A DNA stretch of 52,654 nt from a virus. Numbering within the stretch: position 1 is the first letter of the stretch; each line of letters opens with the position of its first letter. The translations under genes were made by a program, and so were the position numbers. Where the stretch lies: the IMG/VR virus record IMGVR_UViG_3300026488_000030, positions 1 to 52,654 of that record; one strand, 5' to 3'. This document shows positions 11,628-48,045 of this stretch, one piece after another. Under the pieces are notes generated by a model, which saw only the letters and a program-made list of their open reading frames with translations, did not search any database and had not been told where the DNA came from.

Positions 11628-11782
11628 GTGAACTACCGTGCCTAACTGTTTGCAGTCTGAACACGGTTTCCTGCCCAAGTTGGACAGGCACTCTTCCTAT
11701 TATCAGAAAAGCTGCGATCCACGGTCGATGCTGATTCATCCTGCTGCTGATTGTGTTGTGGTAGCAGAGGTATTTTCAGCGA
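11628..11782 (-). promoter_or_regulatory. R2 structured leader element A (upstream of sheath)
   Basis: Read as minus-strand RNA, this leader folds into an outer stem P1 (11758-11767 with 11712-11722, CUGC-CCAC against GUGG-GCAG) enclosing a conserved loop. Next come hairpin P2 (CCUGUCC/GGGCAGG; 11682-11688 with 11670-11676) and hairpin P3 (CCGUG/CACGG with inner ACUG/CAGU; 11662-11666 with 11636-11640). Related elements lie before four other minus-strand genes, and the stems covary between copies. P3's right arm can also pair with ACCGUG just inside P1, so two folds are possible. Confidence 0.7.
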
Positions 11783-11789
11783 GTGTTCG

Positions 11790-12443
11790 TTAAGTTCTTA
11801 TTGTCCAGTATATTTCGAATACACTATCTGGCTCTATCCATTTGGATGGAAAACAAATATGCGCGAACAATTTCGTCGTTGAACCATATACATAATACAA
11901 CCCAGCTTCGTTAATTTCAGTAGTGTCAGCTAAATCGCCGCTTTCAATCTTACATACACATAAAACGTCTGTGTAGTAATTAGTACCACCTTCTGAAGGT
12001 ATTTCAACCTGTTGGAATGTAATTTCGGAAATTGGTTTACATGCATGTTCAACGTTTGATGGTTCTGTTAAGTAACCGCTGTTATTTAGTGATATTGCAT
12101 TATACAGGTGTTCGTCATTACCAACAGGACCGTTTAATGTTACAACATTCTCACCATTACTGTTGGTGATGGTTGCACCGCCAGAACCAACTGCAAAATG
12201 TGATACTTTAAACTGTGTCCAACTGTTAGGGTTATCGCCGTTCATGTCAAATATTTTTTGTGCGACGAATTCTCTACCTAAACCAACAACCATGTTGGAG
12301 CCTTCAAATATTTTCTTGTTATTTTTGAAAATCTCAACCCAACCTGTTAAAGGACCTGGTAGTCTCTTGTTGGAATTAGCGCCGAATTTTGCTTTGTCTT
12401 TCAATGAATAAGCGTCGACTGTATGATACTTTTCGATTCTCAT
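11790..12443 (-). CDS. Hypothetical virion-associated protein
   Basis: A protein of 217 residues from ATG 12443 (MRIEKYHTVDAYSLKDK), with AAGGAG upstream. A longer open frame upstream overlaps the neighbouring gene and has no ribosome binding site. After LPGPLTGWVEIFKNNKKIFEGSNMVVGLGREFVAQKIF comes a strand-rich body ending KWIEPDSVFEIYWTIRT. This architecture recurs in structural proteins of marine and other large myophages, but I cannot name the role. It sits between the 690-residue baseplate candidate and the sheath gene, so it is probably a virion part. Confidence 0.7.
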   Translation of the reverse strand: MRIEKYHTVDAYSLKDKAKFGANSNKRLPGPLTGWVEIFKNNKKIFEGSNMVVGLGREFVAQKIFDMNGDNPNSWTQFKVSHFAVGSGGATITNSNGENVVTLNGPVGNDEHLYNAISLNNSGYLTEPSNVEHACKPISEITFQQVEIPSEGGTNYYTDVLCVCKIESGDLADTTEINEAGLYYVYGSTTKLFAHICFPSKWIEPDSVFEIYWTIRT

Positions 12444-12456
12444 GTTTTCACTCCTT

Positions 12457-14529
12457 TTATGACGTGGTGTATTCATCCGACACTGAAATATTGTCGGATG
12501 CAAATAGTTGTATTGTTTTAGTATGTTTATCAGAAAGATCTGACAAGGATGATACCGATAATTGTTTTAATGTTGAAAGAAAATGCATTCGCATTAGGTA
12601 ATCGATTGTTGATGTTTCATTGTGTTTGTAAAAACTGCTATAAATGGATAGCAAGATGATGTTGCCAATATAGTAAAATATGCGAGATTCGAGATTTGTT
12701 TCACTAATAGCGTATATCTGTTGAACAGATGGCTTGTGTAGCAATTGTTTGAAATTGTCGGGAAGATTTTGATTATCAATATTAAAGCGCCGGATTAGGT
12801 TCCTGAGTATCGACAATACAGCAGTTGATATTGATGTGATGAGTTTATTACTGAAACTATTGGTATCATTCGAAGGTGTTATGGAAATATCGTAGTCAGT
12901 GGTAATAGAGTAAGCTTCATCATCTACGTCTTCAGCGGTAAGTTGTCGAATTGATTTGACAACAGTCTCAAAATATGATAGAATAGAAATCGGCGCTGAT
13001 TTATTTTCTTTAACTAAATGATTAAATGATTCACCAATCGTTTCAATAGATATGTCTGTCAAATCAGTGACAATTTTGTAAATGTCATCAACCTTGTATG
13101 AATCAAGAACTGATACATATAGTTTAATCAACATTGACATTATAATACTAATTGGGCTTGTGGTGTTTAATCGTATCAACGAAGTTATTGTTTCACCAAT
13201 TGTTAATACTGATACAAGATACATCTTTAAGAACAATTGTTCTTCGTCAATAGGAGAAGCGGTTTGCATTGGATCATCAGCAATTAGACGTTGAGGCAAA
13301 GTCTTTTCAACGACTTCTACATGATATGGCTTGAGATGATATAGTATTTTATATGTCATCGAAGATTTTTTGATATCAATCTGTATCATTGGTAATGTTT
13401 CAAGAAAGTCGCTAATGTATTTATTAATTGTAGGATTTGGATTATTAGCGCCGAAAAGTGAAATGCTGACAAATAACTCGTTTAGTATTTGTGGTGTTTC
13501 AATTTCAACTGTAGTTCGACTAAGCCTATCTTCAATGTAATTGGCTAGCTCTTCATTATTTTGCTTTAGAATGTTTCGCAATTGATCAGCTGTTGTAGAT
13601 GGATTTGGACCAGTTGTTCGTATGTATTTTGCTAAATAATGGTCATAAAAGCGCTGAGCATCTACGGCTGATTTTATTTGGTTGAATTCAGAGACAATAT
13701 TGTCTAACTCTTCCAGTGTTGGACAATCACTTTGTGTTGATAGAATTGTTGCTAATATTTGATGGTCAAGCGCGGAAGTTGAGACGTTATAGTATCGTAA
13801 CAGTAAATAGTACCAAAGGCGAACTGTATCAGCCAAAGTTGCATTAGTGAAATGGTCAGAAAAGTATAGTGGAATCTGCTCGTTGCCTTGATATTTCATA
13901 AAAGTACAGAAAATCAACGCTTTAATTATTGAAATATGAACAGACTGATCCGAATAAAACATTAACAAATTGCTTTTTATTGGTAACACCAATGCGTTGT
14001 CTTGGTATAATTGCTCAAGCTCCTCTGGTGATATCAAAAGTGATGGTACTGTTTCATAAGCAATACGATACGGTACTGTTGGCATTTCTCTTGTTGAAAC
14101 ACCTTTGTATACAATTCTTGGTCGTAGTACCCATTCATTTGATTCATTGTCACGATCAATGTATAATTCTGCAATTGAGAAGTTCTCATTGAATGCTGTT
14201 GCTAGTTTGTTTAAGAATTTAATTGAACCTTTATAGCGCGTGAAATCAGACAGGGAACGAATTAATAGTTCTTTTGTATAAGTTGATGCATTTTGTATTA
14301 CTGATTCCGGAAATCCAAGTTCAATTAATATTTTGTCGTATAAGTCTGTATCAATTTGTTGTTTGTCAAGGTAATTAATAACCTTTTCGGGAGTATTTTC
14401 GTATAGCTCCTTTAAGTAATTGTCGGTTATATAATCCATCAACAATTGATACAATTCTTCTTCTTTGTACGGTTTATATTGCTTTAAATATTCATCAACG
14501 TATGTTTTTACATTGTCAAACGTACTCAT
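12457..14529 (-). CDS. Large baseplate- or tail-associated protein
   Basis: A 690-residue protein starting MSTFDNVKTYVDEYLKQY behind TAGGAG. The first 160 residues contain ILIELGFPESVIQ, then KELLIRSLSDFTRYKGSIKFLNKLATAFNENFSIAELYIDRD. That pattern (a helix, a KG-S step, then a strand naming a Y-D) resembles the N-terminal part of several phage baseplate wedge or P2 I-type proteins. The rest is long, helical and rich in Ile, Ser and Thr, with no known motif. It is followed 13 bases later by the 217-residue virion protein. The baseplate role is inferred from context. Confidence 0.6.
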   Translation of the reverse strand: MSTFDNVKTYVDEYLKQYKPYKEEELYQLLMDYITDNYLKELYENTPEKVINYLDKQQIDTDLYDKILIELGFPESVIQNASTYTKELLIRSLSDFTRYKGSIKFLNKLATAFNENFSIAELYIDRDNESNEWVLRPRIVYKGVSTREMPTVPYRIAYETVPSLLISPEELEQLYQDNALVLPIKSNLLMFYSDQSVHISIIKALIFCTFMKYQGNEQIPLYFSDHFTNATLADTVRLWYYLLLRYYNVSTSALDHQILATILSTQSDCPTLEELDNIVSEFNQIKSAVDAQRFYDHYLAKYIRTTGPNPSTTADQLRNILKQNNEELANYIEDRLSRTTVEIETPQILNELFVSISLFGANNPNPTINKYISDFLETLPMIQIDIKKSSMTYKILYHLKPYHVEVVEKTLPQRLIADDPMQTASPIDEEQLFLKMYLVSVLTIGETITSLIRLNTTSPISIIMSMLIKLYVSVLDSYKVDDIYKIVTDLTDISIETIGESFNHLVKENKSAPISILSYFETVVKSIRQLTAEDVDDEAYSITTDYDISITPSNDTNSFSNKLITSISTAVLSILRNLIRRFNIDNQNLPDNFKQLLHKPSVQQIYAISETNLESRIFYYIGNIILLSIYSSFYKHNETSTIDYLMRMHFLSTLKQLSVSSLSDLSDKHTKTIQLFASDNISVSDEYTTS

Positions 14530-14538
14530 GATGTGCTC

Positions 14539-15537: not shown

Positions 15538-15575
15538 AAGCAACTCCTGATTGGAATTTGGTTGCTGAAAGAAAC

Positions 15576-15591
15576 AGAAATCTTTATAGAG
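15576..15591 (+). promoter_or_regulatory. Candidate phage promoter motif (AGAAAT class), site 3
   Basis: AGAAATCTTTATAGAG lies 46 bases upstream of the lone plus-strand gene at 15622. It differs at only three places from site 1 at 5821 (AGAAATCATTATAAAT). Confidence 0.5.
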
Positions 15592-15621
15592 AAAATGAAA
15601 AATTTGAGGAGGTATGTCGTT

Positions 15622-16329: not shown

Positions 16330-16336
16330 AGTGAAA

Positions 16337-16371
16337 CCCGTCTACCATTACAGGTAGGCGGGTTATTTTTG
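16337..16371 (+). terminator. Intrinsic terminator
   Basis: The stem CCCGTCTACC/GGTAGGCGGG (10 pairs, one G-T) with loop ATTACA is followed by TTATTTTTG. It ends the lone plus-strand gene and insulates the opposing tail operon. Confidence 0.9.
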
Positions 16372-16386
16372 TCGAAAAATTGCGCG

Positions 16387-16749
16387 CTAATCCCTAACAA
16401 CAACAAACAATATCACATCCTCATCTTCCAAGTAACAATTCTCCACCACATTCAACCATACGTATCCCACCTTCTTCGTATCAAAAGCAATAAACTCTAT
16501 ATACTTCCCCGCATTCGGGGGCATTACTACATCATATTGCGCTGGGTCAAACACATCAACTTGCGCGCTATTACAAATAGTATATTCAGGATTCATACAC
16601 TTATACGGTACCAAATAATTAAAATCTTTAGTAATCGTAAGCTTATTCCCTCTCCTAACCAACACTTTCGTTTTTATATCACCAGTTGATGTAGCGATAT
16701 ATACTGGTTTAGTGAAATCTGTAAAGAGTGGTATTAATATATTTGCCAT
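16387..16749 (-). CDS. Small hypothetical protein after propeller fibre 1
   Basis: A 120-residue protein starting MANILIPLFTDFTKPVYIATSTGDIKTKVLV, with GGAAGGTG upstream. It looks all-beta (KVLVRRGNKLTIT, YDVVMPPNAGKYIEFIAFDTKKVGYVWLNV, EDVILFVVVRD). It lies directly downstream of the first propeller fibre in the same operon, so it may be a small virion protein or a fibre chaperone. I do not recognise the family. Confidence 0.7.
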   Translation of the reverse strand: MANILIPLFTDFTKPVYIATSTGDIKTKVLVRRGNKLTITKDFNYLVPYKCMNPEYTICNSAQVDVFDPAQYDVVMPPNAGKYIEFIAFDTKKVGYVWLNVVENCYLEDEDVILFVVVRD

Positions 16750-16788: not shown

Positions 16789-17904
16789 CTAAGCGTTAGA
16801 TGTTGCTGATAAACCATATCTCTTAACAGTCAAATCACCGAAGTCTGTAGCATTTGATGGAGTAGGTATGGTGATGTAGTCGATAGTGTTGAAGTGTGAT
16901 GAACCATTCCGACCACCACCGAATACACCACGGTCGTTAGTACCGTTAGATGTTGCTGATAAATTACTTCTTGCAACAGTCAAATCACCGAAGTCTGTAG
17001 CATCTGATGGAGTAGATATAGTGATATAGTCGATAGTGTTGAATCGTGATGAATCATTATAACCACCACCGAATACACCACGGTCGTTAGTACCGTTAGA
17101 TGTTGCTGATAAAGCACTTCTCGCAATAGTCAAATCACCGAAGTCCGTAGCATTTGATGGAGTAGGTATGGTGATGTAACTAATGACATTTACTATTGTT
17201 CCACTATTGTTCAAGTATAAATATGTCTCACCAAACACACCACGGTCGTTAGTACCGTTAGATGTTGCACATCCAGTTCTAACACACTGTGTTAAATCAC
17301 CGAAATCAGTAGCATCTGATGGAGTAGATATGGTGATGTAGTCGATAGTGTTCATACAGTGAACTGAACCATTACTACCACCACCAAACACACCACGGTC
17401 GTTAGTACCGTTAGATGTTGCTGATAAACCACGTCTCACAACTGTCAAATCACCGAAGTCTGTAGCATCTGATGGAGTAGATATGGTGATATAGTCGATA
17501 GTGTTGAAGTGTGATGAACCATTAGCACCACCACCAAATACACCACGGTCGTTGATACCATTGGATGTTGCTGATGAAGCACGTCTTATAACGGTCAAAT
17601 CACCGAAGTCCGTAGCATCTGATGGAGTAGATATGGTGATGTAGTCGATAGTGTTGAAGTGTGATGAACCATCATAACCACCACCGAATACACCAGTGTC
17701 ACCACAAGGGAGTGAACCTGTACAGTTACCGGAATTTGATAACGCTACCCACCTGTTGTTAGGTTGATCGTAAACAAATAACGTATCGTTGTTCGTGTCG
17801 TACCAGAGCTGATTGTGAAATGGCGATGATGGTGCTGTATCAGAAACGTAGACGAAGTTTTTGCTTTTTGTTGGGTCTGGAGTTATAGGGTCAAGTATGA
17901 ACAT
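16789..17904 (-). CDS. Tail fibre with six-repeat propeller, fibre 1
   Basis: A 371-residue protein: a short anchor (about residues 1-60: DPTKSKNFVYVSDTAPSSPFHNQLWYDTNNDTLFVYDQPNNRWVAL), a linker with CTGSLPCGD, and six repeats of about 50 residues. The repeat pattern is GVFGGG-DGS-NTIDYITISTPSDATDFGDLTV-R-LSATSNGTNDR, and the series closes with LSATSNA. Six repeats are what a closed six-bladed beta-propeller would need. The anchor matches fibre 3 (28522-29604). Repeat 4 deviates most (ETYLYLNNSGTIVNV). The variable positions flank GGG and follow LTV. AAGGAGG precedes the ATG. It probably binds the receptor; that part is inferred. Confidence 0.85.
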   Translation of the reverse strand: MFILDPITPDPTKSKNFVYVSDTAPSSPFHNQLWYDTNNDTLFVYDQPNNRWVALSNSGNCTGSLPCGDTGVFGGGYDGSSHFNTIDYITISTPSDATDFGDLTVIRRASSATSNGINDRGVFGGGANGSSHFNTIDYITISTPSDATDFGDLTVVRRGLSATSNGTNDRGVFGGGSNGSVHCMNTIDYITISTPSDATDFGDLTQCVRTGCATSNGTNDRGVFGETYLYLNNSGTIVNVISYITIPTPSNATDFGDLTIARSALSATSNGTNDRGVFGGGYNDSSRFNTIDYITISTPSDATDFGDLTVARSNLSATSNGTNDRGVFGGGRNGSSHFNTIDYITIPTPSNATDFGDLTVKRYGLSATSNA

Positions 17905-17929
17905 TTATACCTCCTTGGTTGGAAACGAA

Positions 17930-18466
17930 CTAAACTGTAACATTAACAGTATGCGCTTGTTCATTAATGCGTAGACTAATAACAATATTATAGTAAGAAG
18001 CAATACCATTACTGGTATTACTAATTGTAACATTCTCAAGTTTAATGGGAACTTGTAAGTCGTTAGCGATTACATTAATAATATTTTGTACTTCTTGGTC
18101 AATAAGTAGTTTACGTGTAGCAGTATCACGAGTTTGAAGATTTTGTTTTAAGTGACTACCGAAGATTGGATCAAAAGGATAGTCATATTGTGATGTGAGT
18201 AGATAGTTTTTGAGATATTCTTTGATAAGCGCGGAAATTTCGTCGATTGGTGTAAAGTCTGCCTTTTCACTTAGATGTGGTTTGAAGTCGAATACCTGCT
18301 TGTATGTGATTACATCTTCTTTCTGTTGTTGTTGAATATGATTTGAAATAAGCGCCTGAATTTCCGCAGGTAATTGGTCTAATTCATAAACGGAAGACCT
18401 AGTGCGAATACTTAAAGGTATTCGCTGGTATATTTCAGGTGGGAGCTCTCGCAGATCAACTAACAT
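17930..18466 (-). CDS. Baseplate wedge protein, gp25/GPW-like
   Basis: A 178-residue protein. The C-terminal 120 residues fit the T4 gp25 / P2 GPW family: DEISALIKEYLKNYLLT, then YPFDPIFGSHLKQNLQ, a DTATRKLLIDQEVQNIINVI helix and final strands VTISNTSNGIASYYNIVISLRI. This protein links the wedge to the tube and sheath. The N-terminal 60 residues (Pro- and Gln-rich, DLRELPPEIYQRI) are an extension. AAAGGAG precedes the ATG. It follows the gp26-like genes, as in T4-type tail clusters. Confidence 0.82.
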   Translation of the reverse strand: MLVDLRELPPEIYQRIPLSIRTRSSVYELDQLPAEIQALISNHIQQQQKEDVITYKQVFDFKPHLSEKADFTPIDEISALIKEYLKNYLLTSQYDYPFDPIFGSHLKQNLQTRDTATRKLLIDQEVQNIINVIANDLQVPIKLENVTISNTSNGIASYYNIVISLRINEQAHTVNVTV

Positions 18467-18478
18467 GGTTGGCTCCTT

Positions 18479-18817
18479 TTACTGTTTGAAGCGTTTCTCG
18501 ATTTGTCCTCGCTGTTGCTGTAGACGTTCTAACTCATGCTTTTTATCATCAGCAAACATTTTCAAAGTGTCTGCATATATTGGATATGGTAGTTTCAGTA
18601 TTGAGTCAATGTCAGGAACAACACCGTCGTTAATATAACGAAGAAGACGAACGGTCTCAATGAAACCGTCATAAGCCTTCTTCGGTGCTTGCGGGTCCAA
18701 ATATTGCTCGCCGAAGAAATTGTAGTTCAATGTCAATGTCATGTGTCCAGGAGTGATTACATGCTGGACATGTGATATTGGTGTAATATTTGATGATGTA
18801 GTCTTTGAAATGTTCAT
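18479..18817 (-). CDS. Overlapping tail-assembly ORF, possible frameshift product
   Basis: This frame overlaps the gp26-like gene by 149 bases in the +1 frame. It continues 190 bases beyond that gene's stop as AYDGFIETVRLLRYINDGVVPDIDSILKLPYP, ending in a charged helix (DDKKHELERLQQQRGQIEKRFKQ). No convincing ribosome binding site precedes any ATG of this frame in the overlap. The part downstream of 18669 is the convincing protein. It may be made by frameshifting from the gp26-like gene, as in tail-chaperone G/GT pairs, or by a start I cannot identify. The true N-terminus is uncertain. Confidence 0.6.
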   Translation of the reverse strand: MNISKTTSSNITPISHVQHVITPGHMTLTLNYNFFGEQYLDPQAPKKAYDGFIETVRLLRYINDGVVPDIDSILKLPYPIYADTLKMFADDKKHELERLQQQRGQIEKRFKQ

Positions 18818-19613
18818 CGTAAAGCGCCAGAATTTGGTCGCCTACATCATATGATATATGCTTTTCGTATGCAATCAGTATTTCCTGTGTTGAGTCAGTC
18901 TCAGTAATAAACTCGAGTTTGTCAACCAGTTCAGAAACCGGCGCTTTTCTCTCTTTAATCTCCTTCAATATACCTTCATCTTCCGGTTTCTTAAACAATG
19001 CAATATTTCCAGTAATCAATGTTAATTGTAAAGGTTTAGTAAATATAGCGCCTAAATTATTAATGTTTTCATTTAACTCATATGATGGTACTAATGATAA
19101 CAACTTCAAATGGTCTCTAACAGACGGTAACTTTAGTTTAACACCATATACCACACTTTCACTTGGAACTAATACATAGTAACCATATTCATTAAATGGT
19201 ACATCCTTATCCCAAGGATGGAATGTGTCTGGATGTATTAATTCGTCTAAAGTTACTTCACGGGTGAATTTTTCTTCACATTCTGGACAGATAAATGAGA
19301 CTTTGCCTAATGTTTTATATGTAGATTTATAAAGCGCCCAAATTAGCGAGATTTTGTCTAAGTTCGATAACTTGTCTTGAAATTCGGTGAATGACAGTTT
19401 TAGCTCTTCACTACCTTTAAACAGTTTCGTTTTGTTGTAAAGCAGTTTCAACATCTGCTTTTCGTAATTGACTGGCGATACGATAGAGCTTTTAAGGGAT
19501 ATGTCATCACCAACCATTAGTGGTGAAACAACAGCACCTAGTTTTGCTATTGGTAATGTAGTTTCAGTACTGAGTACTGATATCTCGCTTAATTTACCTA
19601 AGAAATCACTCAT
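18669..19613 (-). CDS. Baseplate/tail assembly protein, gp26-like with zinc ribbon
   Basis: A 314-residue protein with GGGGAGGAG upstream of the ATG. Two Cys pairs, C109/C112 (FICPECEEKF) and C282/C285 (CPACNHSW), suggest a zinc-bound fold. They bracket a helical core and a C-terminus THDIDIELQFLRRAIFG. This matches the T4_baseplate (gp26) type of hub-assembly protein in layout, which in T4-like clusters also lies next to gp25. It is longer than T4 gp26. It heads the tail operon, with R1 copy 4 just upstream. Confidence 0.7.
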   Translation of the reverse strand: MSDFLGKLSEISVLSTETTLPIAKLGAVVSPLMVGDDISLKSSIVSPVNYEKQMLKLLYNKTKLFKGSEELKLSFTEFQDKLSNLDKISLIWALYKSTYKTLGKVSFICPECEEKFTREVTLDELIHPDTFHPWDKDVPFNEYGYYVLVPSESVVYGVKLKLPSVRDHLKLLSLVPSYELNENINNLGAIFTKPLQLTLITGNIALFKKPEDEGILKEIKERKAPVSELVDKLEFITETDSTQEILIAYEKHISYDVGDQILALYDEHFKDYIIKYYTNITCPACNHSWTHDIDIELQFLRRAIFGPASTEEGL

Positions 19614-19650: not shown

Positions 19651-19838
19651 AGTTTAGCGCGCAAAATGCGGTGGTTATTACAAGTGGCTGAAAACTGTTA
19701 GCCAATAGCGCTTAAACATGCGCATATAGCGACGTAAACGCGCCTATATGCGACGATATGAGCGTCATCAATATAAAACATTGAATTCGACTGTATCGTC
19801 GCGTATATGCGAAGTATGTCGCTATTAGAGCTAGGTTG
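19651..19838 (+). repeat. R1 hairpin repeat, copy 4 (core 19726-19825)
   Basis: The shortest copy. TTTAGCGCGC opens it, only one hairpin module follows, then the 100-nt core. Sequence differences include AGCGTCAT in the loop region and GTATATGCGAAG on the right arm. It fills the 270-base gap between the capsid terminator and the start of the tail operon on the minus strand. Confidence 0.85.
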
Positions 19839-19926: not shown

Positions 19927-21495
19927 TTATCCTACATATGTGCTAAGGTTGTCTACAGTCAATACACCCATTCCGTCAGTTCTGCCAATCTCAATGGCAG
20001 TTCTTGACTTAACATACGTTCTCTTCTGACCGTCTGTTACCTCATTTATTACATACAATGGTTTATATACTAAGTCAATTACACAAGCTTTCTGCAAAGC
20101 GTTTGCAGGAGCTTTTGCAACAACATATATCTTGTCATCATCTATAGCTGGAGATTCAAGAACATTGAGTTTCATGAAGTTGCCAATCTCTCCAGCCCAT
20201 GCTACTGCACCTTCTTTGTCGTTAGGTATAGAAGCAGCAAACTTCTGGAAGTTTCTCAAAGCAGATGCAGTCTTTATACCTGTTACAATGTAGTTTGGAT
20301 ATGCATGGTAGTTTCTCTTAATAATACCCATCAATGTGCTTATCCTTGGGATGATATTCTTCATTACATCCATCGTAGATGCTGGCTGATAGTTTGTGCT
20401 GCTTCCTGCAAAGTTGTTTAGGTCGATGGACAAAGCAGCACCCTGTGCGGACATATCACCCTCAGCAGCTTTGAGGAATAGTGCAAGGTCAACATCCTTG
20501 TTGAGTAGTATCTGTCTCTTTATAGCTTCAGAAAGTGTCTGTACGAGGTCAATCTTGAAGATGCTCTTGTAATCCTGGATGTCCTCTTCGGACACATTTA
20601 TGATGAAGTCGTCGACTTCGTCGATGTTTACATCGATCATGTCAGTCTTGATGTTGACTTCTACCCTACCGTTCATAGTTCCAACTGGAACGAATCTCAA
20701 CTGAACGTCAGCACCAGATGCTATATATGTGTGTCCAGATGTACCACCGCTGAAGCTTACCTGGTAGATCATATCACCAGTGTCAAAGTTTACGTTACCA
20801 TTGAGATATGCCGTTACCGTAGCTCCAGCGCTATCCTGGAATGTGAATACCTTGTTGAACTGGCTTCTGTTGTCTGGTCTGATGTATACAGTTACATCGA
20901 TGTCATGGTTGTTGCTACCATCATTGTCTACGATGCTAACTTTGCTTATCATGACATATCTTCTGTTGATTCTAAACTTGTCGCTGGACAAGCTTGCTGC
21001 TGCAAACAAGTTGCTTCTGTCGTTTGGAGCAATTGTTACAGTTACAAGTCCTGGTCTGAGCTGTGTAACAGCATTAGGCATTCTGTAGTTTTCGCTTGTA
21101 GAACCGTCATAGCTTCTTATCTTAGCGTTGATGTTTACTCTAGGTATAGATGCTACGGATGAGTTAACAGGGTATACTGTTGCAAGCTGTGCAAGTATAG
21201 GCTCTGCATAGATGTCAACGAGTATTGGGAATGACATAACTGTCCAACCCTGTGGATATGCAGATGCTGGAACATTTACAGCTTCTGTCAAGAGCTCTTC
21301 TCTCTGTCTGTTGAGAACAGACTCTACGACTACTTTAGTAGCTGGATCAAGACCTTCTGTGAGAGCATCTTTGAAAGCTGCGAAAGATGCTTCGTCAGCT
21401 ATAGTCTGGAAAGCATCTTTTGGGGAAGAGAATTGGTCTACATTCTCTTTGAGGAAGAGTTCGTAGTTCTCGAACAATAAATCTGTCTGATACAT
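19927..21495 (-). CDS. Major capsid protein
   Basis: A 522-residue protein, the likely major head subunit. Evidence is its place after portal and prohead protease, and family-like features: RVEVNIKTDMIDVNIDEVDDFIINVSEEDIQDYKSIFKIDLVQTLSEAIKRQIL in the middle, with a final DLVYKPLYVINEVTDGQKRTYVKSRTAIEI. The N-terminal 71 residues are helical and charged, ending ELLTE before AVNVPA. This matches the (I/L)-x-E cleavage consensus of gp21-type proteases, so the first 71 residues may be removed in maturation (a scaffold-like segment). A second candidate is LTE-G at 45-47. No separate gp22-type scaffold gene is seen. AGGAGG precedes the ATG, and R2-like element E lies in the leader. Confidence 0.85.
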   Translation of the reverse strand: MYQTDLLFENYELFLKENVDQFSSPKDAFQTIADEASFAAFKDALTEGLDPATKVVVESVLNRQREELLTEAVNVPASAYPQGWTVMSFPILVDIYAEPILAQLATVYPVNSSVASIPRVNINAKIRSYDGSTSENYRMPNAVTQLRPGLVTVTIAPNDRSNLFAAASLSSDKFRINRRYVMISKVSIVDNDGSNNHDIDVTVYIRPDNRSQFNKVFTFQDSAGATVTAYLNGNVNFDTGDMIYQVSFSGGTSGHTYIASGADVQLRFVPVGTMNGRVEVNIKTDMIDVNIDEVDDFIINVSEEDIQDYKSIFKIDLVQTLSEAIKRQILLNKDVDLALFLKAAEGDMSAQGAALSIDLNNFAGSSTNYQPASTMDVMKNIIPRISTLMGIIKRNYHAYPNYIVTGIKTASALRNFQKFAASIPNDKEGAVAWAGEIGNFMKLNVLESPAIDDDKIYVVAKAPANALQKACVIDLVYKPLYVINEVTDGQKRTYVKSRTAIEIGRTDGMGVLTVDNLSTYVG

Positions 21496-21530
21496 AATTG
21501 TGAAACCTCCTGTAGTTTATGTTTATTTTA

Positions 21531-21667
21531 AAGGTTTAGCGCCGAAATTGCGCTTGTGTGAGTGTGCTGATTCACCCTGCTGCTGATTGTGCTGTGATTT
21601 TGCAAAGGTGTTTTCAGCGAATGCATGGTTGAAGGTTTAGCGCCGAAATTGCGCTCGTGTGAGTGTG
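21531..21667 (-). promoter_or_regulatory. Capsid leader: R2-related block E between direct repeats
   Basis: Two 36-bp direct repeats (21531-21566 and 21632-21667, one mismatch) each contain the TTTAGCGCCGAAATTGCGCT motif. They flank a segment, 21563-21625, whose minus-strand RNA matches the 5' block of R2 elements A and B (CGCUGAAAA, then ACAAUCAGCAGCAGG and UGAAUCAGCA). The downstream P2 and P3 hairpins are missing, so this is a partial R2. It lies upstream of the major capsid gene. Confidence 0.6.
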
Positions 21668-23256: not shown

Positions 23257-23575
23257 TTTAGCGCGCGAATTGCGATGGTTATTGCAAGTGGTTGGAGTTG
23301 TTACGCTAATGGCGTTTAAACTCGCGCATATCACAAACAGCTGAAGCTGTTACGCTACCACGCGATAAATCGCGTGTTATCATCCGCAACTGAAGTTGGA
23401 ATGCTATGCGCAGAATAATCTGCGCATATAGCGACGTAAACGCGCCTATATGCAACGATATGAGCGCCATCAATATAAAACATTGATTTCGACTGTATCG
23501 TCGCGTATACGCAAAATATGTCGCTATTAGAGCCAGGTTGCGGATATAGTTACTGTAGTAGATGTATGTTACAAT
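23257..23575 (+). repeat. R1 hairpin repeat, copy 5 (core 23428-23527)
   Basis: It opens with TTTAGCGCGCG. Hairpins CAGCTGAAGCTG, CGCGATAAATCGCG, CAACTGAAGTTG and GCGCAGA/TCTGCGC precede the 100-nt core. The left arm has GCAACGATA and the right arm TATCGTCGC, one pair weaker than most copies. It lies upstream of the acidic head protein on the minus strand and before copy 6. Confidence 0.85.
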
Positions 23576-23600: not shown

Positions 23601-23910
23601 AGTTGTTACACCGCCAGTGCTTAAACACACGCATATCACTCGTGGCTAAAGTCAGAGTGCTATGCGCAGAATAATCTGCGCATATCGCAAACAGTTGAAA
23701 CTGTTACGCTACCACGCGATAAATCGCGTGTTATCATCCGCAACTGAAGTTGGAATGCTATGCGCAGAATAATCTGCGCATATAGCGACGTAAACGCGGT
23801 TATATGCGACGATATGAGCGCCATCAATATAAAACATTGAATTCGACTGTATCGTCGCGTATACGCAAAGTATGTCGCTATTAGAGCCAGGTTGCGGATA
23901 TAGTTACGGT
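23601..23910 (+). repeat. R1 hairpin repeat, copy 6 (core 23782-23881)
   Basis: This copy shows the tandem layout best. About 48-nt units each hold a CGC..GCG hairpin followed by an ACTGAAGT-type hairpin and TGCTA, then the 100-nt core. In this copy CAGTTGAAACTG replaces CAGCTGAAGCTG, keeping the pairing (C-G to T-A), which supports a structured role. Confidence 0.85.
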
Positions 23911-23947
23911 CGATAGTATTAGTTAATGAAAATTGAACATTGCTGAT

Positions 23948-23960
23948 AGAAATTATTGCA
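23948..23960 (+). promoter_or_regulatory. Candidate phage promoter motif (AGAAAT class), site 4
   Basis: AGAAATTATTGCA lies just after R1 copy 6 and 41 bases before the start of the 46-residue plus-strand gene. Confidence 0.45.
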
Positions 23961-26198: not shown

Positions 26199-27314
26199 CT
26201 AAGCATTAGACGTTGCTGACAACCAATATTTCACAGCAGTCAAATCACCGAAATCCATAGCATCTGATGGAGTAGATATGGTAATGTAGTCGATAGTGTT
26301 GACAGCTGAACCAGCATAACCACCACCGAATACACCGCGGTTGTTAGTACCGTTGGATACAGCTCCTGAAGTTTCCCTTGCAACAGTCAAATCACCGAAA
26401 TCTGAAGCATTTGATGGAGTAGATATGGTGATGTAATCAATAGTGTTGACAATTGAACCAGTACTACCACCACCGAATACACCACGGTCGTTAGTACCGT
26501 TAGATGTCGCTGATGGAGCTTCCCTTGCAACAGTTAAGTCACCGAAATCTGTAGCATCTGATGGAGTAGATATGGTGATGTAATCGATAGTGTTAACTCG
26601 TGATGAACCATCCCAACCACCACCGAATACACCACGGTCGTTAGTACCGTTAGATGTTGCTGATAGCCAATTCCTCGCAACAGTTAAGTCACCGAAATCT
26701 GTAGCATCTGATGGAGTAGATATGGTGATGTAATCGATAGTGTTAACTCGTGATGAACCAATATCGCCACCACCGAATACACCACGGTCGTTAGTACCGT
26801 TAGATGTTGCTGAAAAACTACTTCTCGCAACAGTCAAATCACCGAAATCTGAAGCATTTGATGGAGTAGATATGGCGATGTAATCAATAGTGTTGACAAT
26901 TGAACCAGTACTACCACCACCAAATACACCACGGTCGTTAGTGCTGTTAGATGTTGCTGATGGAGCATCTCTCGCAACAGTCAAATCACCGAAATCTGTA
27001 GCATCTGATGGAGTAGATATGGTGATGTAGTCGATAGTGTTAACTCGTGATGAACCATCATAGCCACCACCGAATACACCAGTATCACCACAGGGGAGTG
27101 AACCTGTACAGTTACCGGAACTAGAACTATTAGTATTTAACATCAACCATCTGTTATTATGAAAGACATAAACATAATCGATTAGTCCTGATTCTGATAA
27201 ATGTGCCCAGACCATACCTTCGAATGGAGCGTCTGGGGTATATTTGCTTATTATGTCTGGATGAAAATTATTGTCATTTACAGGAAGAGGTCGAATGCTT
27301 CCTGGATTTGCCAT
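26199..27314 (-). CDS. Tail fibre with six-repeat propeller, fibre 2
   Basis: A protein of 371 residues from ATG 27314 (MANPGSIRPLPVNDNNFHPD), with GAGGTG upstream; an in-frame GTG three codons earlier lies within that site. The anchor differs from fibres 1 and 3 (ISKYTPDAPFEGMVWAHLSESGLIDYVYVFHNNRWLML). The linker CTGSLPCGD and the six 50-residue repeats are shared. Repeats 2 and 5 are near identical (GSTGSIVNTIDYI), a sign of recent copying within the gene. The predicted fold is a six-bladed propeller, probably receptor-binding. R2 element B lies in the leader. Confidence 0.85.
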   Translation of the reverse strand: MANPGSIRPLPVNDNNFHPDIISKYTPDAPFEGMVWAHLSESGLIDYVYVFHNNRWLMLNTNSSSSGNCTGSLPCGDTGVFGGGYDGSSRVNTIDYITISTPSDATDFGDLTVARDAPSATSNSTNDRGVFGGGSTGSIVNTIDYIAISTPSNASDFGDLTVARSSFSATSNGTNDRGVFGGGDIGSSRVNTIDYITISTPSDATDFGDLTVARNWLSATSNGTNDRGVFGGGWDGSSRVNTIDYITISTPSDATDFGDLTVAREAPSATSNGTNDRGVFGGGSTGSIVNTIDYITISTPSNASDFGDLTVARETSGAVSNGTNNRGVFGGGYAGSAVNTIDYITISTPSDAMDFGDLTAVKYWLSATSNA

Positions 27315-27369
27315 TTTATGCACCTCGTTTGGGAATTTAATTGAATGAAAAGCGCCGAAATTGGAATGT

Positions 27370-27420
27370 TTGATGGAGTAGATATGCTGATGTTAACCAG
27401 TAACCACCACGGTCGTTAGT
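27370..27420 (-). pseudogene. Relic of a propeller repeat
   Basis: TGATGGAGTAGATATG and CCACCACGGTCGTTAGT are two words from the propeller-repeat DNA (coding for ISTPS and TNDRGG). Here they stand 12-18 bases apart instead of their usual distance, outside any intact gene and upstream of fibre 2. It appears to be a deleted remnant of a repeat unit. Confidence 0.6.
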
Positions 27421-27452
27421 GTCAGCATCGCGAATGAGCGCTAAATGAAAAA

Positions 27453-27613
27453 GTGAACTACCGTACCTAACTGTTACACAGTCTGAACACGGCTTCCTGC
27501 CCAGGTTGGACAGGCAATCTTCCTCTGACAACAGGGAGAACTGCAATCCACGGTCGATGTTGATTTATCCTGCTGCTGATTGTGTTATGATTCAACAGAG
27601 GTATTCTCAGCGA
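27453..27613 (-). promoter_or_regulatory. R2 structured leader element B (upstream of fibre 2)
   Basis: Read as minus-strand RNA it has P1 CUGU-AAUC with GAUU-GCAG (replacing CUGC-CCAC/GUGG-GCAG of element A), P2 CCUGUCC/GGGCAGG, and P3 CCGUG/UACGG (one G-U) with inner ACUG/CAGU. The conserved P1 loop AACACAAUCAGCAGCAGGAU is nearly the same as in A. Confidence 0.7.
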
Positions 27614-27677
27614 TTATTTGATAAAAAGCGAAACCAGCAGGTGGTTTCGCGCGCTTATATATTATGAAACGAATTCA

Positions 27678-28301
27678 TTACACCTTTGGATTATAATTCA
27701 AATACTCTTCAACAATCTCCGTCATCTTCTGTCCTCTGCTTCTAAGCTTAGCTAGAACCTCAGCTGGGTCTTCTAAATCTGTTCTGTCTTTATACAATCC
27801 TTCGTCTATTTCTGCTAATATACTGTCAACCATTGTTTTATATTCTGTTAATTTAGTTGGTAGATTGCTGTTATTATCCATTATCCATTTGGATAATCTA
27901 AGTAGTAGACGTTCATTTAGTGTTACACGTTTCCATAAGTCTGCGACTATGTCGTAGATGTCTTCGACTTCTGCGTGGAGTTTGTGTCTAGTTTCCAATT
28001 TTTTTAGCGCTTTTAAAGCTTTAGCTTTTAATTGTTTTTCATTAGATGTTAAAGCGCGCATTTCGCTTTCCGGATCAGAAGGATCCGTCGGTACCTGGTC
28101 TACACCTAGGAACTTGAAACCTTCTGCTGTTTCATCATCAACAGGCATAGGTTCCCAGTATTTGATGGTGTGGAATAGGTTGCTGTCTATTTCACCTAAA
28201 TAGTAATCACCATAATTACCAAGTATGGTAGCGTTTGGCGGCATAGGTCCACCGATTGTTGGAAGGTATCTGTTTAAGAAAATAAATTTTGTAGTTGCCA
28301 T
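27678..28301 (-). CDS. Hypothetical protein between propeller fibres
   Basis: A 207-residue protein, MATTKFIFLNRYLPTIGGPMPPNATILGNYGDYYLGEIDSN. A short strand-rich N-terminal part is followed by a long helical, charged region with heptad-like spacing (KQLKAKALKALKKLETRHKLHAEVEDIYDIVADL), so coiled coil is likely. It lies between fibres 2 and 3 in the same operon, so it may be a fibre connector, trimerisation factor or chaperone. GGAGGA precedes the ATG, with R2 element C upstream. I do not recognise the family. Confidence 0.7.
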   Translation of the reverse strand: MATTKFIFLNRYLPTIGGPMPPNATILGNYGDYYLGEIDSNLFHTIKYWEPMPVDDETAEGFKFLGVDQVPTDPSDPESEMRALTSNEKQLKAKALKALKKLETRHKLHAEVEDIYDIVADLWKRVTLNERLLLRLSKWIMDNNSNLPTKLTEYKTMVDSILAEIDEGLYKDRTDLEDPAEVLAKLRSRGQKMTEIVEEYLNYNPKV

Positions 28302-28336
28302 AGGTTAAATTCCTCCGTTTTGTTTTGTTTTATGTT

Positions 28337-28470
28337 GATCTGCCGTACTCAACTGCCACGCAGTCTGAATACGGCTTCCTACTCGGATTGGATAGGCATT
28401 CTCTCCTCTGGTAACAGGAAGAACGTGATCTACGGTCGATACTGATTCGTTCTGCTGTTAATCACGTTTC
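28337..28470 (-). promoter_or_regulatory. R2 structured leader element C
   Basis: The most diverged full copy, upstream of the 207-residue gene. P1 is ACGUGAU/AUCACGU (28461-28467 with 28423-28429), unlike A and B yet perfectly paired. P2 is CCUAUCC/GAGUAGG, with a G-C to A-U swap relative to A. P3 is CCGUA/UACGG, with a G-C to A-U swap, and inner ACUG/CAGU. These changes keep the fold and are the best evidence for a functional RNA. Confidence 0.72.
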
Positions 28471-28521
28471 GAAGTGTGTATTTTTTGCGATAATTGCTAC
28501 AGTCAACGGTGACTCCAACAA

Positions 28522-29604
28522 CTAAGCGTTAGATGTTGCTGATAAAGTATCTCTCGCAACAGTCAAATCACCGAAATCAGTAGCATCTGATGGAGTAGAT
28601 ATGGTGATGTAGTCGATAGTGTTGAATCGTGATGAACCATTACTACCACCACCAAATACACCACGGTCGTTAGTACCGTTAGATGTTGCTGCCAAATTAT
28701 CTCTCACAACAGTCAAATCACCGAAATCAGTAGCATTTGACGGAGTAGATATGGTGATGTAGTCGATAGTGTTGAAGGTTGATGAACCATCCCAACCACC
28801 ACCGAATACAGCACGGTCGTTAGTGCCGTTAGATGTTGCTGATAAACATTCTCTCACAACAGTCAAATCACCAAAGTCTGTAGCATTTGATGGAGTAGAT
28901 ATGGTGATGTAGTCGATGATGTTGAATCGTGATGTACCAGCATAACCACCACCAAATACACCACGGTCGTTAGTACCGTTAGATGTTGCTGCTAAAGCAT
29001 ATCTTGCAACAGTTAAATCACCGAAGTCTGTAGCATCTGATGGAGTAGATATGGTGATGTAGTCGATAGTACTGAAGTAACCACCTGAACCATTAGCACC
29101 ACCACCAAATACACCACGGTCGTTAGTACCGTTAGATGTTGCCGATAACCAAGCTCTCGCAGCGGTCAAATCACCAAAATCAGTAGCATCTGATGGAGTA
29201 GATATGGTGATGTAGTCGATAGTACTGAAACGTGCACCATTCCAACCACCACCGAATACACCACGATCGTTAGTACCGTTAGATGTTGCTGATAACCAAT
29301 CTCTCGCAGCGGTCAAATCACCAAAATCAGTAGCATCTGATGGAGTAGATATGGTGATGTAGTCGATAGTGTTGAGGTATGAACCGTCATAACCACCACC
29401 AAATACACCAGTATCACCAAGTCCGAAGTTTCCAGATGATAACGCTACCCACCTGTTGTCAGGTTCGTTGTAAACAAATAACGTATCATTGTTTGTGTTG
29501 TACCAAAGCTGGTTGTGAAATGGTGATGATGGTGCTGTGTCGGAAACATAGACGAAGTTTTTACTTTTAGATGGATCAGGAGTTATGTTTGAATATGTTG
29601 CCAT
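28522..29604 (-). CDS. Tail fibre with six-repeat propeller, fibre 3
   Basis: A 360-residue protein whose anchor (SKNFVYVSDTAPSSPFHNQLWYNTNNDTLFVYNEPDNRWVALSSG) is nearly the same as in fibre 1. It lacks the CTGSLPCGD linker (NFGLGD instead). Six repeats of about 50 residues follow, all with TIDYITISTPS-ATDFGDLT. Repeat 3 has an insert (SGGYF) and repeat 5 begins AVFGGG. The predicted fold is a six-bladed propeller. GAGGTAAC precedes the ATG. With fibres 1 and 2 it may form alternative or jointly displayed adhesins. Confidence 0.85.
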   Translation of the reverse strand: MATYSNITPDPSKSKNFVYVSDTAPSSPFHNQLWYNTNNDTLFVYNEPDNRWVALSSGNFGLGDTGVFGGGYDGSYLNTIDYITISTPSDATDFGDLTAARDWLSATSNGTNDRGVFGGGWNGARFSTIDYITISTPSDATDFGDLTAARAWLSATSNGTNDRGVFGGGANGSGGYFSTIDYITISTPSDATDFGDLTVARYALAATSNGTNDRGVFGGGYAGTSRFNIIDYITISTPSNATDFGDLTVVRECLSATSNGTNDRAVFGGGWDGSSTFNTIDYITISTPSNATDFGDLTVVRDNLAATSNGTNDRGVFGGGSNGSSRFNTIDYITISTPSDATDFGDLTVARDTLSATSNA

Positions 29605-30625: not shown

Positions 30626-30935
30626 AAGCGCGCGAAATTGGATCCTGTGATTATCGCGAATGTGGTTAAGCACCATTGTCGCTGAAACAGGCTCATACCA
30701 CTCGTGACTAAAGTCAGAATGCTATGAGCGCTTAAATCTGCGCATATTGCAAACAGCTGAAGCTGTTACGCTACCACGCGATAAATCGCGTGTTATAGCG
30801 ACGTAAACGCGCCTATATGCGACGATATGAGCGCCATCAATATAAAACATTGATTTCGACTGTATCGTCGCGTATACGCGAAATATGTCGCTATTAGAGC
30901 CAGGTTGCGGATATAGTTACTGTCGTAGATATATG
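30626..30935 (+). repeat. R1 hairpin repeat, copy 7 (core 30795-30894)
   Basis: It opens with AGCGCGCGAAATTGG. It has CAGCTGAAGCTG and CGCGATAAATCGCG hairpins directly joined to the 100-nt core; the other two modules seen in copies 3, 5 and 6 are missing. A perfect 14-bp palindrome, TGTTGAATTCAACA, follows at 30934-30947, possibly an operator for the mini-unit downstream. Confidence 0.85.
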
Positions 30936-30956
30936 TTGAATTCAACATTTACGAAT

Positions 30957-31022
30957 AGAAATTATTCAACCAGAACCTTCCAGTTATTGACTTTAATTGT
31001 CTGGTAATAGAAATTATAATAC
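30957..31022 (+). promoter_or_regulatory. Two candidate AGAAAT-class promoter motifs, sites 5 and 6
   Basis: AGAAATTATTCA (30957) and AGAAATTATAAT (31009) lie 52 bp apart between R1 copy 7 and the mini-unit at 31046. The second is 37 bases before the start codon. Confidence 0.45.
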
Positions 31023-44886: not shown

Positions 44887-44914
44887 ATTATCATCTCCTG
44901 TTTTAAAATTTTAT

Positions 44915-45214
44915 TTTAGCGCGCATACTGCAAACGGCTGAACTGTTACATCAATGGTGCTTAAATCGCGTGTTATCATTCTCAGCTAAAGTTGAAATGC
45001 TATGGGCGCTCAAACACGCTCATATCACAAACAGCTAAAGCTGTTACGCTACCACGCGATAAATCGCGTGTTATAGCGACGTAAACGCGGTTATATGCGA
45101 CGATATGAGCACCATCAATATAAAACATTGAATTCGACTGTATCGTCGCGTATACGCGAAGTATGTCGCTATTAGAGCCAGGTTGCGGATATAGTTACTG
45201 TAGTGAGTATATGT
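44915..45214 (+). repeat. R1 hairpin repeat, copy 8 (core 45073-45172)
   Basis: It opens with TTTAGCGCGC upstream of the gp6-like gene on the minus strand and lies directly after the terminator of the 471-residue gene. It has CAGCTAAAGCTG and CGCGATAAATCGCG hairpins, then the core. The left arm is ACGCGGTTATATGCGACGATA, where other copies have ACGCGCCTATATG; the two-base bulge differs from the usual CC. Confidence 0.85.
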
Positions 45215-45216
45215 TA

Positions 45217-45247
45217 GAAAAAAAGGAGAAACCATTGTGGTTTCTCC
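45217..45247 (-). terminator. Intrinsic terminator
   Basis: On the minus strand, GGAGAAACC/GGTTTCTCC around ACAAT is followed by TTTTTTTCTAAC. It lies 3 bases after the stop of the 471-residue gene and ends the 50.6-45.2 kb unit. Confidence 0.9.
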
Positions 45248-45249
45248 AT

Positions 45250-46665
45250 CTATTGGAAGAAGGAGGCTATCTCCTTGAATATCCAGTTATTTCCGTCAAT
45301 AGCTGTTGCTTCATAATACCCACTGCAATAATACGTAAATGGAAGTGTTGTTAGTTCGTTACTCGAACGATTACCAATTAGTTCTTTATTTGGCAGAGAC
45401 TGCGGAAAGCATCCAACAGCCTTACCAGCGTACATTATTTTAGTTAAACTAGGGTCAAATTTTAACACATAAAATGATGCAACATAATCAACAGCTCGAA
45501 ATAATGACGAATTTTTGTCAATGTAACGACTGTCTGGTTTTATCAATCCTGCTGTAACACCCCAAATATACTTAATCCATAGACTGTGTAAGTTGTAAAT
45601 GTCTAAATTACTGTTCTCTATATACGTAACAGACATCTGATTTGTCGGAACAACCTCTGTTGCATAAGGAACACCACCAGAACGAGATTCAACTGATTCA
45701 GCATTAACTTGGTATGTTGGTAAAGAAAAGTCAACTGCTGCAAATGGTATGAAATTGGCAATATTCATTATTTCAGAAATATCACCTTCTATACCATATG
45801 CATTTGGTTGTTTTATACGATAGCCAGATAAGTCTGGTGGGACCATTAATAGAATAGTATGACCTGTGATATCAGGCTGGTATTCATGATACAATTGCTC
45901 ATATAATTGACGAATTAACTTTTCTGGAAATTGTGTAGTCAGAAGGTTGCGAGTGTATTTTATTAAAATATCTGTTGGGTCGTTTCCTAATGATGGACTA
46001 GCAGATGTAACAACATCATAGGCAGAACGATTAGCATTGAAAACATATGTACCTATGCTTTTTGCTTGCGGAGTAATTGATTGTTTAGCTAATTTTTGTT
46101 CAAGCGCGGAAATTTGCTCAGTGATTGATTTAACAGGTTTCACTAAATTACCGACTGAATTTGATAAACCATTTGTCTGATTATTCGGAACAATATCTGA
46201 CTGCATAGTATCATTGAATGCAACTTGATCAAAGTTCTCTAAGCTATTCTGCAAACCACGTGGAATATTATTAGCTTCGAGCTGTTCAACAATATTTTTT
46301 GCTCGTGAAATATCATAATTTACATCCTCAATTTTCTCATTTAAACGCTCGAGCAAGCCCTCTGAAACTTTATCAGGATCGACAATTGTAGTCTGATTCT
46401 CAATCTGCTGAACTAGGCTAGACGAAACAGTCGTACTTTTATCAATAAGAGACCGTTGACTATCTGCAAACGTCTCTGACAATTGTAAATCGACATCAGA
46501 TAGTGATTTGGTTAGAGTAGTATCTAACGAATTAGATTCAACCTTTTGCAAAGTACTTTCAACCGTTTCTTCAACTTGGTTTAATTTATCGATTGAATCT
46601 TTAATGAAGTCTTCTACCTTTTGTTCATCACCTTTAACACCTTTGATGAATTTAGATATACTCAT
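45250..46665 (-). CDS. Tail/baseplate protein with coiled-coil start
   Basis: A 471-residue protein. About residues 1-200 are helical and charged with heptad character (KLNQVEETVESTLQKVESNS, LLERLNEKIEDVNYDISRAKNIVEQLEAN). The C-terminal half is strand-rich: FIPFAAVDFSLPTYQVNAESVESRSGGVPYATEVVPTNQMSVTYIEN, then LWIKYIWGVTAGLIKPDS and FDPSLTKIMYAGKAVGCFPQSLPNKELIG. This resembles tube-like baseplate hub/initiator proteins of large myophages. AAGGAGA precedes the ATG. The assignment is tentative. Confidence 0.6.
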   Translation of the reverse strand: MSISKFIKGVKGDEQKVEDFIKDSIDKLNQVEETVESTLQKVESNSLDTTLTKSLSDVDLQLSETFADSQRSLIDKSTTVSSSLVQQIENQTTIVDPDKVSEGLLERLNEKIEDVNYDISRAKNIVEQLEANNIPRGLQNSLENFDQVAFNDTMQSDIVPNNQTNGLSNSVGNLVKPVKSITEQISALEQKLAKQSITPQAKSIGTYVFNANRSAYDVVTSASPSLGNDPTDILIKYTRNLLTTQFPEKLIRQLYEQLYHEYQPDITGHTILLMVPPDLSGYRIKQPNAYGIEGDISEIMNIANFIPFAAVDFSLPTYQVNAESVESRSGGVPYATEVVPTNQMSVTYIENSNLDIYNLHSLWIKYIWGVTAGLIKPDSRYIDKNSSLFRAVDYVASFYVLKFDPSLTKIMYAGKAVGCFPQSLPNKELIGNRSSNELTTLPFTYYCSGYYEATAIDGNNWIFKEIASFFQ

Positions 46666-46676
46666 AGGTGTTCTCC

Positions 46677-47915
46677 TTATGTATTATGGCGACAATTTGC
46701 AAGCTGAATGTTATATGCAATTGTGTAAATTAAAACGTTTTCCAATTGTCTCATTAAGTAAGTGCTGTAGTTGAATGTTAAGTTCTTCTCCTCTTGTATT
46801 TTCTTTAGTAATTCACCAATCAATTTGTATAATTGATTGACTTCTGGATTATTTTTAGATGAAACAATTAAGCGCTTAACTTTAACTAAGAAGTCTAATG
46901 TACAAACTTTATTCTTATCCTTAATCTGCAAACGATTAAGCATAAGTGGAATTATCTCACTAAGCAAATTGTCATATTCAGGATTATGTATAGACTGTGC
47001 TAATAGTTTAACAATGTCACGTCTAACGTTTGTTCTTAAATCAATCGAAATGTTATTAGCGAATTTGTCACTGTATGATGCAAATGTATTAGTTGTAATA
47101 AAGTTGACAGTCTCATGTGTAATCTCATCAATGTTATTTTCAACTTCAAATGGCTCTTCTTCGTTACTAACTTCCGCAGACATATATTTACCTTCTTGTT
47201 TAGCGCGCATATATAGTGGGAGTAATCCTGTGGATGCTAACTTTTGACCTGTTTTCGGGTCAATCTGGAAGTTGGATGCAAATATTTGAACAATTCTAGC
47301 ATGAGCTTGTTCTAAGAAACGTTTTAATGACAGTGGATGTGCAATACCATTGTGTAGAATCTGAGGTTTATATTTTGTTAAAAGTGTTGGTGCGTAATAA
47401 TCTTTAATTAGCTGAAATGGATTGCTATAAGATGTTACAATAAAGCGCTTATTCATCATAACATTAACAACATAATTCATAACCCTAGGATCGCAGTACT
47501 TTATATATTTCATTCGTCTGCCGTTCCAAACACGTATTAAAATTAGTGTTGCTATATTTTTTGCTAATTCTTTATCATGTTCTTCATCTTTAAGCGCCCA
47601 ATATAGTAAAAATAAAAGTATCAAATAATATGGATTGTTAAACATTCGGTTAGACATAGTTGCAGCGCCCCAAGCTTCCTTGAATGCTTCGGCTAATTCT
47701 TTCTCGTCGATATTAGCGAGTTTGTATAATTCACTAACATCTTTTTCAGGTAATTTAAAACGATAACAATAACCTTCTTCACTTTTCATAACGTCTGTGT
47801 AAATTTTACCAACTGTAGTTCGAATTGTATCGATTAGTTTATGTTTGATATCTGGATTTTTCTTTATATAAGCGCTGAATTTTCTGTACATGTCTTCAAG
47901 CTTACTACTTGCCAC
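46677..47915 (-). CDS. Hypothetical helical protein
   Basis: A 412-residue protein starting at GTG (ASSKLEDMYRKFSAYIKKNPD) with AGGAGG upstream. It is largely helical. One hydrophobic segment, NPYYLILLFLLYWAL, might be a membrane helix or core helix. Conserved-looking patterns include MSNRMFNNPYYLI and CDPRVMNYVVNVMMNKRF. No family is recognised. The leader carries R2-like element D. It sits between the 471-residue baseplate candidate and the small genes at 48 kb. Confidence 0.7.
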   Translation of the reverse strand: MASSKLEDMYRKFSAYIKKNPDIKHKLIDTIRTTVGKIYTDVMKSEEGYCYRFKLPEKDVSELYKLANIDEKELAEAFKEAWGAATMSNRMFNNPYYLILLFLLYWALKDEEHDKELAKNIATLILIRVWNGRRMKYIKYCDPRVMNYVVNVMMNKRFIVTSYSNPFQLIKDYYAPTLLTKYKPQILHNGIAHPLSLKRFLEQAHARIVQIFASNFQIDPKTGQKLASTGLLPLYMRAKQEGKYMSAEVSNEEEPFEVENNIDEITHETVNFITTNTFASYSDKFANNISIDLRTNVRRDIVKLLAQSIHNPEYDNLLSEIIPLMLNRLQIKDKNKVCTLDFLVKVKRLIVSSKNNPEVNQLYKLIGELLKKIQEEKNLTFNYSTYLMRQLENVLIYTIAYNIQLANCRHNT

Positions 47916-47935
47916 GACTATCCTCCTGATTTATC

Positions 47936-48045
47936 TTGAACTGTTGCGTCTAAACTACAAAGCAGTTAGACACGTTTTCCTGCCTGGATCTGCAGTTTGA
48001 CGATTGCAGTTTACTGCTGACAATGTTGTGGTAGCAGAGATGTTC
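47936..48045 (-). promoter_or_regulatory. R2-related leader element D
   Basis: A shorter, diverged relative, upstream of the 412-residue gene. Minus-strand RNA keeps the 5' block CUCUGCUACCACAACA and CAGCAG, then AGGCAGGAAAACGUG. P3 is replaced by a long hairpin GUGUCUAACU/AGUUUAGACGC. The P2 hairpin is not intact. Confidence 0.55.

Follow-up and report, generated by a model that had tools for sequence, protein, structure and literature searches.

A modular, structured intergenic RNA element ahead of late virion genes in one jumbo-phage lineage

Introduction

Related sequences recur in the gaps ahead of sheath, capsid, fibre-like and other genes of a large phage, which raises the question of whether they act as RNA on the messages of these genes, or whether some other kind of element occupies the gaps. 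The analysed DNA is a virus record of 52,654 bases (the window), a fragment of a genome, and all copy counts refer to this window. It is part of a jumbo myophage genome, with minus-strand genes for sheath, tube, capsid, head protease, baseplate, a DnaB-type helicase, terminase and fibre-like proteins. A sequence-only reading of the window had reported five related elements on the minus strand, here called R2, in the 5′ leaders of minus-strand genes.

Results

R2 is a modular element with five copies in the window

The R2 gaps were compared all against all and with a covariance model, and the five elements were found at the places reported:

11620..11786, minus strand: copy A, full length with stem-loops SL1 to SL4, 84.6% identical to B; cmsearch score of 182 bits with a model whose own input included A
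27446..27617, minus strand: copy B, full length, supported by the model and by pairwise matches
28328..28494, minus strand: copy C, with SL2 to SL4 retained (28334-28425) and SL1 lost
21555-21624, minus strand: copy E, SL1 only (21558..21622), picked up at an E-value of 5e-7 by a model that had only A, B and C as input
about 47935-48055, minus strand: copy D, divergent, comprising the 5′ module and the final hairpin

Full-length R2 measures about 167 nt (A, B and C). Identity amounts to 84.6% over 169 nt between A and B (E 1e-45), 78% over 123 nt between B and C (E 1e-21), 85% over 59 nt between A and E (E 5e-13) and 88% over 26 nt between A and D (E 4e-4); copy D was not recovered on the right strand by the model from A, B and C alone. 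R2 is modular: A and B are whole, E consists of SL1, D of SL1 and SL4, and C of SL2 to SL4. Stems P2 and P3 of the sequence-only reading, our SL3 and SL4, are therefore present in A, B and C but not in every copy, with E lacking both and D lacking P2. A 39-bp direct repeat (21629-21667 and 21528-21566) containing AGCGCaatttcgGCGCT lies on either side of copy E. The hairpins were placed as follows:

11730..11780, minus strand: SL1 of A, GCUGA..CCUCUGCU/AGCAGcAGG..UCAGC, a fold common to A, B, E and D
11691..11711, minus strand: SL2 of A, from the consensus fold of A, B and C
11670..11688, minus strand: SL3 of A (P2), CCUGUCC/GGGCAGG, with a G-C to A-U swap in C
11636..11666, minus strand: SL4 of A (P3), CCGUG/CACGG plus an inner stem, with a G-C, G-U, A-U series
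47990..48054, minus strand: SL1 of D, from the A-D match and the shared fold
47946..47973, minus strand: SL4 of D, with another stem sequence, from the A-D fold (z -3.5)

Each copy precedes a different gene:

9325-11556, minus strand: tail sheath gene, downstream of copy A
19927-21495, minus strand: capsid gene, downstream of copy E
26199-27323, minus strand: fibre-like paralogue gene, downstream of copy B
27678-28301, minus strand: 207-aa gene, downstream of copy C
46677-47915, minus strand: 412-aa gene, downstream of copy D

A Shine-Dalgarno sequence is present at all five genes, and the R2 3′ ends lie 20-130 nt upstream of the start codons, closest at C and D (only 20-27 nt). Because the minus strand holds nearly all genes in this region, any gap would pass as a "leader". 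By eye, the apparent reading frames of A and B run into stops, and indels of 1-2 nt in B and C disrupt them as well, for which reason we consider them non-coding and discarded a small protein as a candidate; no tRNA or tmRNA was found either.

The 3′ half folds as a sense-strand RNA

SL2, SL3 and SL4 form three consecutive hairpins in A, B and C. Their alifold consensus reaches -33.4 kcal/mol, against -13.6 in column shuffles (z -6.7, SCI 0.97, 0/300 shuffles as good), and the antisense strand is weaker, at -22.6 kcal/mol. Paired cells make up 93% of the complete element, compared with 28-52% when the partners are slid by 1-3 columns, and seven pairs have changed on both sides against 0-1 in the slid controls; with three to five sequences from one genome, these counts represent few independent changes. 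The cells of SL2 to SL4 include 18 G-U against 3 A-C, an excess that speaks for the mRNA-sense RNA, in a consensus that was built on the sense strand and is somewhat biased towards it. SL2 to SL4 is thus a conserved sense-strand RNA structure beyond chance. The covariation described for P3 was recovered in full, running from CCGUG/CACGG through G-U to CCGUA/UACGG in A, B and C. The swap from G-C to A-U described for P2 is likewise present in C, where this stem also carries one C-A mismatch. SL4 recurs in D, and a possible closing helix around SL2 to SL4 (GUGGAU/GUUCAC) appears in the single folds of A and B, with C pairing in another register.

The 5′ half has a plausible stem other than the one first proposed

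A covarying stem P1 had been proposed for the 5′ half, and it did not survive alignment: the pairings in A, B and C fall on different, non-homologous columns, and the three copies together have no conserved structure there (z -0.46). What A, B, E and D have in common is the 5′ stem-loop SL1, which is absent in C (z -6.6 for A, B, E and D; -5.3 for A, B and E; -2.2 on adding C). Since its pairing is conserved with a single compensatory pair, SL1 is plausible rather than proven as a conserved 5′ stem-loop of these four copies.

Related phages have the same genes without R2

Relatives were detected by protein alignments; single-protein searches with capsid and sheath failed, and a terminase alignment retrieved only distant phages. 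R2 was absent from seven related viral records and one contig of a bacterial MAG, several of which are fragments, in collections from which very near relatives may be missing. Six of the records (G001-G006) gave no convincing match to models of full R2, SL1 or SL2 to SL4 (best E 0.19), the MAG (G007) none to the full model and the remaining record (G008) none to the models of SL1 and of SL2 to SL4; as a control on the pipeline, the SL2 to SL4 model recovers the window copies. Neither the SL4 nor the SL1 core had an exact-pattern match in IMG/VR, the SL4 core had none in GTDB genomes, and blastn of copy A against 50,697 phage records gave none.

One relative (G001; 314,837 bp) has 127-bp direct repeats at both ends and is for this reason probably complete. 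Its genes are in synteny with those of the window from 8427 to 47915, with protein identities of 21-57%, and its upstream gaps measure 27 nt at the sheath gene, 36 nt at the capsid gene and 27 nt at the homologue of the 412-aa gene. In other relatives the gap upstream of the sheath gene is 49-131 nt where measured, and some of these gaps hold unrelated hairpins. As the relatives' homologues do without R2, it is dispensable for these genes across the clade.

The sequence-only reading had proposed an undescribed phage leader RNA class. "Undescribed" agrees with Rfam 15, which gave no match over the whole window at the gathering cut-off and, in permissive scans of A, B, C and E, chance matches only; the wider claim has to be narrowed, since the element is confined to one lineage among the relatives found. 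From these comparisons R2 appears new in sequence and dispersed ahead of the virion genes of one jumbo-phage lineage, and is best regarded as a lineage-specific element, not yet as a phage-wide RNA class.

Several features of the relatives were recorded alongside. The sheath leaders of L109 (9927-10000), L110 (9920-10000) and L115 (9870-10000) have hairpins of their own that share no sequence relation with R2; the hairpins of L109 and L110 resemble each other in their loops, UUCCCGGU and UUCCGGUU, and L115 has two hairpins with a GUUGGGGAA loop. Several gaps of L109 (3334-3405, 12230-12298) and L110 (5182-5232, 12257-12327) share a palindromic hairpin, ATCGGCAAGATC..GATCTTGCCGAT. Capsid, head protease and sheath genes of relatives are interrupted (L110 685-3586; L113 82-1283; L115 11224-11585), probably by introns or inteins. 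G001 (L091) has two capsid paralogues, 9992-11542 and 17883-19517, with 50% and 34% identity to the window capsid, the second of which adjoins the sheath gene.

Other repeats in the window

A second dispersed intergenic repeat family, R1, has eight copies in one orientation:

6412-6660, 7830-8030, 8074-8336 and 19676-19838: R1 copies
23312-23574, 23634-23957, 30700-30966 and 44920-45222: further R1 copies

R1 forms a long imperfect hairpin in which small hairpin modules are swapped between copies, and the plus strand gives the better fold (z -10.0, against -6.3 for the minus strand). On the plus strand, ATAGAAATTAT occurs at about 6690, 23956 and 30965, directly upstream of plus-strand gene 6741-7685 and of what appear to be small plus-strand genes around 23990 and 31040, and it may be a promoter of the clade because a similar ATATAGAAATAATAT recurs in the gaps of relatives. 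Plus-strand positions 2-7685 hold four genes with 87-bp repeat arrays and a common 5′ part, one of them with a DUF7666 domain. The three fibre-like paralogues (16789-17904, 26199-27323 and 28522-29604) have internal repeats of 147-150 bp, and a degraded piece of this repeat lies at 27349-27393, between copy B and the start of gene 26199-27323.

Discussion

Which reading of R2 fits best

The account we prefer, and to which we give an even chance of being right, is that R2 is a lineage-specific, modular, dispersed and structured leader or intergenic RNA that acts in cis on late virion mRNAs. The compensatory changes on the sense strand argue that the fold is under selection as RNA, and a cis role on the late mRNAs is the most likely one. 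Copies would have been duplicated from gap to gap, each retaining its own subset of modules, and would be transcribed, forming a folded block close to the 5′ end of late mRNAs; its possible roles are protection of the mRNA, guidance of mRNA processing, and binding of a protein of the phage or the host. If true, R2 would place unlinked late genes under a shared post-transcriptional control. Because syntenic relatives lack it, its gain would be a recent and testable evolutionary event, and R2 would be a case of intergenic cassettes spreading inside jumbo-phage genomes.

The strongest competitor, which we consider possible though clearly less probable, draws on the PeSLs, reportedly described by Arbiol et al. 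in 2010 as mobile regulatory cassettes in T4-type phages. PeSLs are short intergenic repeats with an early promoter and stem-loops. R2 and R1 together may be cassettes of this kind, promoter plus stem-loops, that spread, or exchange modules, by homologous recombination; the RNA fold would then, with the same tentative standing, be a part of the cassette and no regulator of late genes as such. R2 and R1 together occupy nine of the ten minus-strand gaps of at least 130 nt, the copies are modular and truncated with E flanked by a direct repeat, and the relatives lack R2. Copy B, moreover, is preceded at a spacing of about 10 nt by a transcription stop:

27628..27650, minus strand: intrinsic terminator of the gene upstream of B, with a 9-bp stem, five G-C pairs and a T run

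At least B may therefore head a transcription unit, and a new promoter would be required nearby. Against the cassette, a promoter within R2 was not identified: sigma-70-type sites show no enrichment (61 found against 67.9 expected), a count that applies to promoters of this type and from which the phage's own late promoters may differ. The compensatory changes on the sense strand also point to selection on RNA.

It is unlikely, in our estimate, that the mRNA of the following gene excludes R2, which would then be a 3′ trailer of the upstream gene or silent spacer. This reading starts from the motif GCGCTWWW, found 36-56 nt before the start codon at seven genes (1.35 expected), namely those behind R2 copies A, B and E, those behind three R1 copies, and the tube gene; if the motif is a promoter, R2 would be outside the mRNA at A, B and E. 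Copies C and D speak against it, as the motif is absent there and R2 ends so close to the start codon. At E and at the tube gene, furthermore, the motif is part of a GCGC hairpin, and it may for this reason be structure and not promoter.

We are equally doubtful of the more ambitious form of the leader hypothesis, in which R2 would represent a new class of regulatory RNA in phages: the leader common to sheath, capsid, fibre and other virion genes would respond to one trans factor and so coordinate them. That R2 replaced the short leaders of the relatives in one jumbo-phage lineage, as this form would have it, is no more probable to us.

Improbable, and more so than the readings above, is a switch between two states, one with the two arms of SL4 paired to each other and one with its right arm paired to ACCGUR of the 5′ half. 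The sequence-only reading had raised it from a covarying alternative pairing, and the pairing does exist: ACCGUR repeats the sequence of the SL4 left arm and changes with it in C, which is one change in all. The switch itself finds little backing in A, B and C, where the alternative is less stable by 6.5, 4.8 and 14.2 kcal/mol, respectively, and where the 5′ segment pairs with the SL4 arm only as well as shuffled sequence does. Copy D is more favourable, with a 19-pair alternative in other letters (-19.3 kcal/mol; 2 of 1000 shuffles as good) that comes within 1.1 kcal/mol of the SL4 fold. A terminator T-run does not follow SL4, and the shift in Shine-Dalgarno accessibility is inconsistent across copies. 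The calculated energies thus leave a switch possible in D and weak in the other copies. Sequestration of the ribosome-binding site by R2 was considered as a candidate and set aside, accessibility showing no consistent change between copies.

That R2 is a decayed group I intron is very improbable. The test was prompted by two likenesses: the 5′ half looks like the P/Q (P4-P5) region, and the full R2 model had its sole match among four named or huge phages in an intron of the prohead gene in the Staphylococcus phage Machias (E 0.11). RF00028, with the Machias introns as positive control (E 5e-6 to 7e-10), is silent on A, B, C and E up to E 5-10 (D was scanned at the gathering level); neither the 3′ strand of P7 nor a P3 or P8 was found by eye; and all five copies are intergenic and interrupt no gene. 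The intron reading was rejected on these grounds. The likeness to RF00028 comes down to the P4-P5/Q-like 5′ hairpin, in an element without the catalytic core.

Comparison with known systems

The literature on elements like R2 offered analogies only. RNA antiterminators such as HK022 put and Bacillus EAR have at least two hairpins early in a transcription unit. R2 would have such an arrangement too, and differs in giving no Rfam sequence match and no sign of terminator read-through.

The likeness to PeSLs is broader. Like them, R2 is a short, dispersed, intergenic and modular repeat with stem-loops in a large myophage, and its presence or absence differs among related genomes. It differs in that an early promoter belongs to PeSLs and none was identified in R2, and in that R2 precedes late virion genes and shows compensatory changes; the likeness is one of organization. 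With cis-acting leaders R2 shares a sense-strand structure beyond chance, as judged from three to five sequences.

The T4 gene 32 mRNA leader has a pseudoknot 67 nt upstream of the start codon (PMC3014915). As in R2, a structured RNA lies tens of nucleotides upstream of the ribosome-binding site, leaves that site uncovered and is lost in some relatives. The gene 32 leader is a single copy through which a protein autoregulates its own synthesis, whereas R2 precedes five different genes.
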